From Haloferax sulfurifontis ATCC BAA-897 (GTDB lineage: Archaea > Halobacteriota > Halobacteria > Halobacteriales > Haloferacaceae): 64,000 nucleotides of DNA. The notes below the pieces were generated by a model that was not told the DNA's origin, did not search any database, and saw only the letters and a program-made list of their open reading frames with translations. The stretch's first letter is position 1; each line of letters starts with the position of its first letter. The position numbers and the translations under genes are program-made. Below are positions 44,061-44,417 of the stretch, one piece after another. Location: positions 1 through 64,000 of the forward strand of contig NZ_AOLM01000025.1 of the NCBI RefSeq assembly GCF_000337835.1, given 5' to 3'.

Positions 44061-44163
44061 CTTTGCATTCAATCTGTGAAATTAAGAGGTAGAGATGCCT
44101 ATAGGCACGAAAAATGGAGATTAGAGATTTCGACGTGTCCCGAAGGAGATGATGATTGTGGCC

Positions 44164-44241
44164 CTAAAGGGCCCGTCGTCGGGGTCGGACAGCCGCGGCT
44201 CGCAGTGGGGCAAAAGTGGCGCAAGTACTGCGAGTCGCCAT
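44164..44241 (-). CDS. Candidate arginine-rich leaderless small ORF upstream of argG (25 aa)
   Basis: An ATG at 44241 opens 25 codons; six are arginine (residues 4, 14, 19, 21, 22 and 23), four of them in the final VRPRRRAL. The TAG lies in the loop of a perfect hairpin, GGCCC-TTTA-GGGCC. Inside the ORF a second perfect stem, CTCGCAGT with ACTGCGAG, can form. A TTTAATA box 28 nt upstream places the transcript start about five bases before the ATG. A run of five T on this strand (44114-44110) follows downstream. It may be a leader peptide, a small protein or a small RNA; GC-rich DNA yields arginine-rich frames by chance, so this needs expression data. Confidence 0.4.
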   Translation of the reverse strand: MATRSTCATFAPLRAAAVRPRRRAL

Positions 44242-44268
44242 TGTTGTGAAACGCTACGACGTCGTCCC

Positions 44269-44275
44269 TATTAAA
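44269..44275 (-). promoter_or_regulatory. TATA box of the small ORF upstream of argG
   Basis: TTTAATA on the minus strand, identical to the lysW box and with nearly the same distance (28 versus 27 nt) to the following ATG. Confidence 0.5.
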
Positions 44276-44300: not shown

Positions 44301-44417
44301 TCAGTCGAGCAACTCCCCGGCGAGTTCGACCAGCAGTTCGTTGTCGACGAGCGCGAGGACGAGCGCGACGAGCGCGACCACGACGACTGCGATGACGAGC
44401 CACTCGATAAGGGTCAT
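44301..44417 (-). CDS. Small membrane protein (38 aa)
   Basis: 38 residues: MTLIEWLVIAVVVVALVALVLALVD is one continuous membrane helix with an aromatic-acidic cap, followed by an acidic amphipathic tail (NELLVELAGELLD). It is too short for standard ORF cut-offs, but the N-terminal helix and tail make a plausible single-span protein, and its codons match the local GC-rich style. Family unknown. It lies between argG and the antiporter gene, in the same direction. Confidence 0.5.
   Translation of the reverse strand: MTLIEWLVIAVVVVALVALVLALVDNELLVELAGELLD

Follow-up and report, generated by a model that had tools for sequence, protein, structure and literature searches.

Leader-peptide attenuation is a type of control known from bacteria. 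In the trp, his, leu and thr operons, and in the pheM leader of E. coli pheST, a short leader ORF with codons for the end product lies just before a gene for that amino acid or for its tRNA synthetase, and the position of the ribosome decides whether a hairpin forms. Here we describe an archaeal leader with the same kind of ORF in the same position, for which we propose the same role of the ribosome. We searched the open-access literature and came across no archaeal case of leader-peptide attenuation, in agreement with the preliminary description of this locus, according to which such a layout is not known to have been described in archaea. Small ORFs in 5' regions of 150-250 nt with mapped start sites have been described in Haloferax volcanii (Babski et al. 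2016, PMC4983044), and the leader reported here is an ORF of the same kind. However, argG is not in the published table, the pI values listed there are low compared with a predicted pI of 12 here, and no attenuation was proposed.

The window is the whole stretch of DNA that we analysed, 64,000 nucleotides from Haloferax sulfurifontis ATCC BAA-897. On its minus strand, a leader region lies between a transporter-like gene and argG, and the locus has the following features:

44275-44269, minus strand: P1, a TATA box (TTTAATA) with GAAGCG before it; the spacing from box to ATG is the same in nearly all genomes
44241-44164, minus strand: leader ORF of 25 codons, MATRSTCATFAPLRAAAVRPRRRAL followed by a stop, with six Arg and a predicted pI of 12
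44238-44195, minus strand: stem 1, its 5' arm (44238-44227) directly after the ATG and its 3' arm at 44206-44195
44187-44173, minus strand: Arg cluster CGA CCC CGA CGA CGG, the proposed arginine sensor
44173-44160, minus strand: hairpin 2, GGCCC(TTTA)GGGCC, the proposed terminator/attenuator
44159-44142, minus strand: G-free, C/A/T-rich stretch ACAATCATCATCTCCTTC 3' of hairpin 2
44114-44109, minus strand: T5C, a possible termination site, whose T5 (44114-44110) begins 46 nt past hairpin 2
44058-44053, minus strand: P2, argG's own TATA box (TTTATC)
44026-42809, minus strand: argG, argininosuccinate synthase, the proposed regulated gene
42807-41341, minus strand: argH, directly 3' of argG

The P1 box lies 27 nt from the leader ATG (44241-44239), and its transcript is predicted to be near-leaderless, with a start at about 44246. 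The stop codon TAG (44166-44164) forms the 3' edge of the loop of hairpin 2. Folding and reading of the sequence both place stem 1 (arms GCGACTCGCAGT and ACTGCGAGCCGC, with one mismatch) and hairpin 2 one after the other without overlap, and the two are therefore not mutually exclusive alternatives. There is no U-tract directly after hairpin 2, where the G-free, C/A/T-rich stretch is found instead; because the T5 run starts only further downstream, hairpin 2 alone is not a bacterial-type terminator. These results bear out much of the anatomy given in the preliminary description: the near-leaderless TTTAATA box upstream of an ATG (at 27 rather than 28 nt), the 25-codon minus-strand ORF with six arginines and a stop in the loop of a GGCCC/GGGCC hairpin, and argG's own near-leaderless TATA box are all present. 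The stem that it placed within the ORF exists and is longer than stated, but it does not overlap hairpin 2 and so is not an alternative to it; likewise, the five-T run is there, but 46 nt downstream of the hairpin rather than adjacent to it. Structured RNAs of the kind collected in Rfam would likewise be cis-acting upstream elements, and the argG leader matches none: the covariance models, those of T-box and riboswitches included, gave nothing up to E = 1 for the window and nothing at the gathering score for five related loci. At the two ends of the locus, a small hydrophobic frame, MTLIEWLVIAVVVVALVALVLALVDNELLVELAGELLD (44301-44417, minus strand), adjoins P1 on its upstream side and was seen in 12 of the 15 genus members but not in the remaining three, and a lysW-type gene with its own promoter box (41092-41086) comes after the argG-argH pair.

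Within the genus, the leader stands at the same place before argG in 15 of 15 genomes. One group of leaders ends in VRPRRRAL before the stop and the other in VRRRRPAL, encoded with CGA CGA CGA CGA. In stem 1 there is a compensatory pair, T-A in three genomes and C-G in the rest, with both changes synonymous (AGT/AGC and CCA/CCG). In two genomes the hairpin 2 loop has changed from TTTA to CTCA; the stem is intact and the frame stops three codons later. For a wider comparison, we used argG upstream regions from 80 further genomes, picked across genera and families from searches of the family (148 genomes) and of the order (146 genomes). We parsed 84 argG leaders from 13 families, while four regions in which the argG start was not recognised were left unparsed. 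The leader is present nearly everywhere sampled in the order. Its sequence and length vary, but the layout is shared: P1 box, ATG, stem 1, Arg cluster and a G+C hairpin whose loop holds or adjoins the stop. The frames run from 20 to more than 50 codons (87 in one named genome), and their N-terminal sequences are unrelated, while the C-termini converge on RRPRRPG(L/R), RRRRPAL and similar endings before the stop. A few relatives (for example L049, L052 and L053) have an Arg-rich frame with a divergent layout. We found no leader at argG in three deep-branching families (f2, f9 and f11; loci L071, L097 and L100); the origin of the device may lie within the order.

The preliminary description cautioned that arginine-rich frames arise by chance in GC-rich DNA, and a chance frame next to a chance hairpin is one rival account. 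As a control, we took 1,739 intergenic small ORFs before genes from 2 Mb of one same-genus genome. Arg-rich tails alone are indeed common there (12.9% have at least three Arg in the last 10 codons), but only 2.5% of the control ORFs have a comparable stop hairpin and five (0.3%) have both. We also scanned a 22-nt pattern for the leader 3' end, CGACGACCGGGCCNNTAGGCCC, which contains no argG information, against one genome per species for 84,980 species. All 37 matches are haloarchaeal, among them Halogranum amylolyticum, Halosimplex carlsbadense, Halococcus morrhuae, Halorientalis marina, Halobaculum gomorrense and Natribaculum breve. Thirty-five lie directly before argG; at the other two the DNA ends 132-141 nt on, and a typical leader is found upstream of the match. 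The element thus recurs throughout the order before the same gene while its sequence changes, and its consistent placement across species before a gene for the end product is the one seen in attenuators. The argG leader is real and far beyond chance, and the comparative data refute the chance account, to which we give a vanishingly small probability.

A further objection in the preliminary description was that argG has its own promoter. P2 is found before argG in families f1, f6, f7, f10, f14 and f16, and no P2-type box was found in the argG upstream regions of seven others (f3, f4, f5, f12, f13, f15 and f17). In families without P2, the distance from leader stop to argG is usually 58-110 nt. 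Since P1 is the only recognisable promoter in these seven families, leader and argG should share a transcript there, and it is these families, with the leader but without P2, that answer the objection most strongly. In the window's genus and the five other families in which P2 is present, attenuation would govern only part of argG transcription. The same data bear on the idea, also raised earlier, of a separate small gene, for an Arg-rich micro-protein or small RNA, that has its own terminator and only happens to stand before argG. The window itself is compatible with this idea, as P2 would allow a P1 transcript to stop before argG. However, the layout is conserved and the protein sequence is not, the element always stays with argG among the pattern matches (shown for 35 of the 37, with two cut off), and seven families have no other recognisable argG promoter; we regard a separate gene as most improbable. 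Near P2 we also observed a palindrome, TGCCTATAGGCA (44096-44107), with TCTCTACC directly after it; it lies some 40 nt from the box on the upstream side. Families f1 and f6 both retain the motif (C)TATAGGCATCTCT, a candidate operator for P2.

We next consider what the leader could sense. Across the 84 parsed leaders, the frequency of Arg is 76% at codon -4 before the stop, 67% at -5 and 71% at -7, and 6-28% beyond -8; 62 of 68 non-redundant argG leaders have at least three Arg in the last 10 codons. End-product codons are therefore enriched near the 3' end of the leader ORF, as they are in attenuators, and Arg codons and argG neighbourhood are conserved together across the order. The choice of codon is also distinctive: 72% of the Arg codons among the last nine leader codons are CGA, compared with 31% earlier in the frame and 20% in the genes of one genome of the genus. 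This CGA preference is confined to the proposed sensor region, and it could come in part from a need for unstructured RNA. An alternative is that the nascent peptide itself acts, with an Arg/Pro-rich C-terminus (RRPRRPGL/R) in the ribosome tunnel sensing free arginine, much as the arginine attenuator peptide of fungi does. An Arg-Pro-Gly C-terminus does recur in many genera, and polybasic and proline-rich ends can slow ribosomes. However, only Arg, Pro and Gly are conserved: the N-terminal part is free in length and sequence, and we found no fungal-type conserved arrest residues in leader peptides that vary freely outside these three amino acids. The strong choice of CGA points to codon or tRNA sensing and would be needless for a peptide sensor, and a Phe leader before pheS (see below) shares the plan although its peptide is another one. 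We consider arrest by the nascent peptide very unlikely.

A hairpin is present at or next to the stop in all 68 non-redundant argG leaders. Its arms vary while pairing is kept (for example GGGCC/GGCCC, GGCCC/GGGCC, GGGTC/GACCC and ACCCC/GGGGT), and 359 of 408 pairs are kept compared with a shuffled mean of 278 and maximum of 300 (500 shuffles), although the hairpins were chosen for pairing and the control small ORFs are therefore a fairer null than the shuffles. The in-frame stop codon occupies the 3' edge of the loop or directly follows the hairpin; the loop is 3-8 nt long, and loop length and the frame of the 5' arm covary. Compared with synonymous shuffles in which peptide and codon counts are unchanged, the ORF bodies fold better (mean z -1.36, with 61 of 68 below zero), and stem 1 starts 3-12 nt past the A of the ATG in many genera whose sequences are quite different. 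Taken alone, the stem 1 helix test gives a modest result (p <= 0.05 in 17 of 68 leaders), and the whole-leader minimum free energy of a single species is unexceptional (z -1.57), so that comparative tests are needed. No antiterminator was seen by folding or by eye, only the two non-overlapping stems. Downstream of the hairpin, at 10-20 nt after the stop, the RNA has 5% G and 46% C across leaders, and T-runs of at least four are mildly enriched (57% versus 37% shuffled). With a hairpin kept by compensatory changes, the stop at the loop edge and Arg codons -4 and -5 within reach, the geometry is that expected if a stalled ribosome were to mask the hairpin; from codon -7 or further upstream, it would hardly extend that far. 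In families without P2 (L074-L085), we also observed that a second hairpin (for example CCGCCC...GGGCGG) is often present 30-60 nt ahead of argG and that an GGTTCGTTTCG-like motif follows the G-poor stretch; either is a possible pause or termination signal.

The same arginine-sensing leader could act after transcription, with the position of the ribosome altering mRNA cleavage or stability or the translation of argG. The missing U-tract next to the hairpin would fit this reading, as would the 5' region of about 60-185 nt past the leader stop in readthrough mRNA without P2, whose folding could matter. A hairpin that opposes initiation is, however, expected near the argG start, and the constant hairpin lies 58-184 nt upstream. 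Moreover, hairpins without a T-stretch do terminate in H. volcanii, where such a hairpin can end 59% of transcripts and the T5C motif 95% (PMC7237163); the T5C of the window resembles that motif. We consider post-transcriptional control unlikely.

Comparison of the loci establishes the leader frame, the Arg/CGA cluster, the stop in the hairpin, stem 1, the exclusive link to argG and seven families without a second promoter. From these features we infer ribosome stalling, masking, termination and a response to arginine, and we propose that the element is probably an arginine-sensing, ribosome-mediated leader-peptide attenuator before argG-argH. The attenuation-like layout on which the preliminary description had remarked is supported across the order at the level of sequence. 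In the proposed mechanism, RNA polymerase would start at P1 and a ribosome would load at once on the near-5'-terminal AUG, opening stem 1. When charged Arg-tRNA, mainly the CGA-reading species, is scarce, the ribosome would stall within the Arg cluster, at a distance of 4-8 codons from the stop. By analogy with bacteria, a ribosome whose A site holds codon -4 or -5 would cover about 13 nt downstream, which in the commonest geometry is the whole 5' arm of hairpin 2; the hairpin would be blocked and transcription would continue into argG. When arginine is plentiful, the ribosome would reach the stop in the hairpin loop and leave, hairpin 2 would form, and stem 1 would close over the start region and hinder re-initiation. 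The ribosome-free, G-poor RNA could then be terminated by the hairpin itself, by the downstream T-stretch or by FttA, a factor thought to act on RNA uncoupled from the ribosome and preferring U-rich RNA (PMC11616081). This model would work without an antiterminator.

In a second example, we identified a leaderless frame, MASEPERGARASEPTTDGFGFFFLTA followed by a stop (L133:638-718), upstream of pheS (phenylalanyl-tRNA synthetase alpha) in the window's own genome. Its codons -4, -5, -6 and -8 encode Phe, and the stop lies inside a hairpin loop. Phe-rich frames with GFGFFF-like endings precede pheS in 21 of 30 genomes sampled, from most haloarchaeal families (a few are weak, for example L148 and L152), and their stop hairpin is less constant than that at argG. 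A GGYGGACTC motif is conserved shortly past the pheS leader stop. In H. volcanii, a 26-codon uORF before pheS has a mapped start site, with no second start at pheS, and was reported without an attenuation reading (PMC4983044, Table 2). The pheS leader is likely this published uORF, as the length fits, although mass and pI differ somewhat. By its sequence, we consider the pheS leader a second candidate attenuator. The device seems to be restricted to few genes. In a survey of 2.0 Mb of a same-genus chromosome with a strict promoter box, a stop hairpin was found only at argG and at a TTG-started frame before an ilvA-like gene; with a relaxed box, the enriched residue fits the gene only at argG and pheS. 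Amino-acid enrichment in this survey is overall similar in same-strand and opposite-strand frames and is therefore not evidence alone. In the window's own genome, the upstream regions of trpS and tyrS have no such leader by reading, and genes with ACT and PALP domains have no convincing one. A W-rich frame before a lipA-like gene was judged to be chance.

If true, this would be the first ribosome-mediated attenuation in Archaea, regulating after transcription initiation, and an order-wide attenuator would demonstrate control during elongation. It would also be functional evidence for coupling of ribosome and RNA polymerase in archaea, offer a natural setting in which to test whether it is FttA or a hairpin that stops transcription once the ribosome departs, and mean that attenuation arose, or spread, outside bacteria. 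The proposed attenuator can be tested in the genetically tractable H. volcanii, where argG is HVO_0049 (PMC8305020).

Lastly, we compare the leader with the known systems. The fungal arginine attenuator peptide (the arg-2/CPA1 uORF) is likewise an upstream ORF that controls an arginine gene. In contrast to the argG leader, in which the Arg codons are conserved and the peptide is not, it is eukaryotic, works through a conserved peptide and causes stalling when arginine is high. With Rho-dependent control of the tnaC type, the argG leader shares the possible exposure of C-rich, G-poor RNA once the ribosome is gone, and FttA has been described as a functional analogue of Rho (PMC11616081). However, FttA is not a relative of Rho, its preferred RNA is U-rich, and the proposed signal is tRNA charging rather than a free ligand. 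Unlike the bacterial attenuators, the argG leader is archaeal and near-leaderless, has its stop in the control hairpin's loop or beside it, and has no adjacent U-tract and no antiterminator that we could see. It is thus a variant rather than a textbook attenuator, one that would work like the bacterial kind. We lean towards the view that haloarchaea evolved their own form of leader-peptide attenuation, in which leaderless ORFs would sense Arg at argG and Phe at pheS, the stop lies in the control hairpin, no antiterminator is used, and termination would be archaeal, through a hairpin, a T-stretch or FttA acting on ribosome-free RNA.
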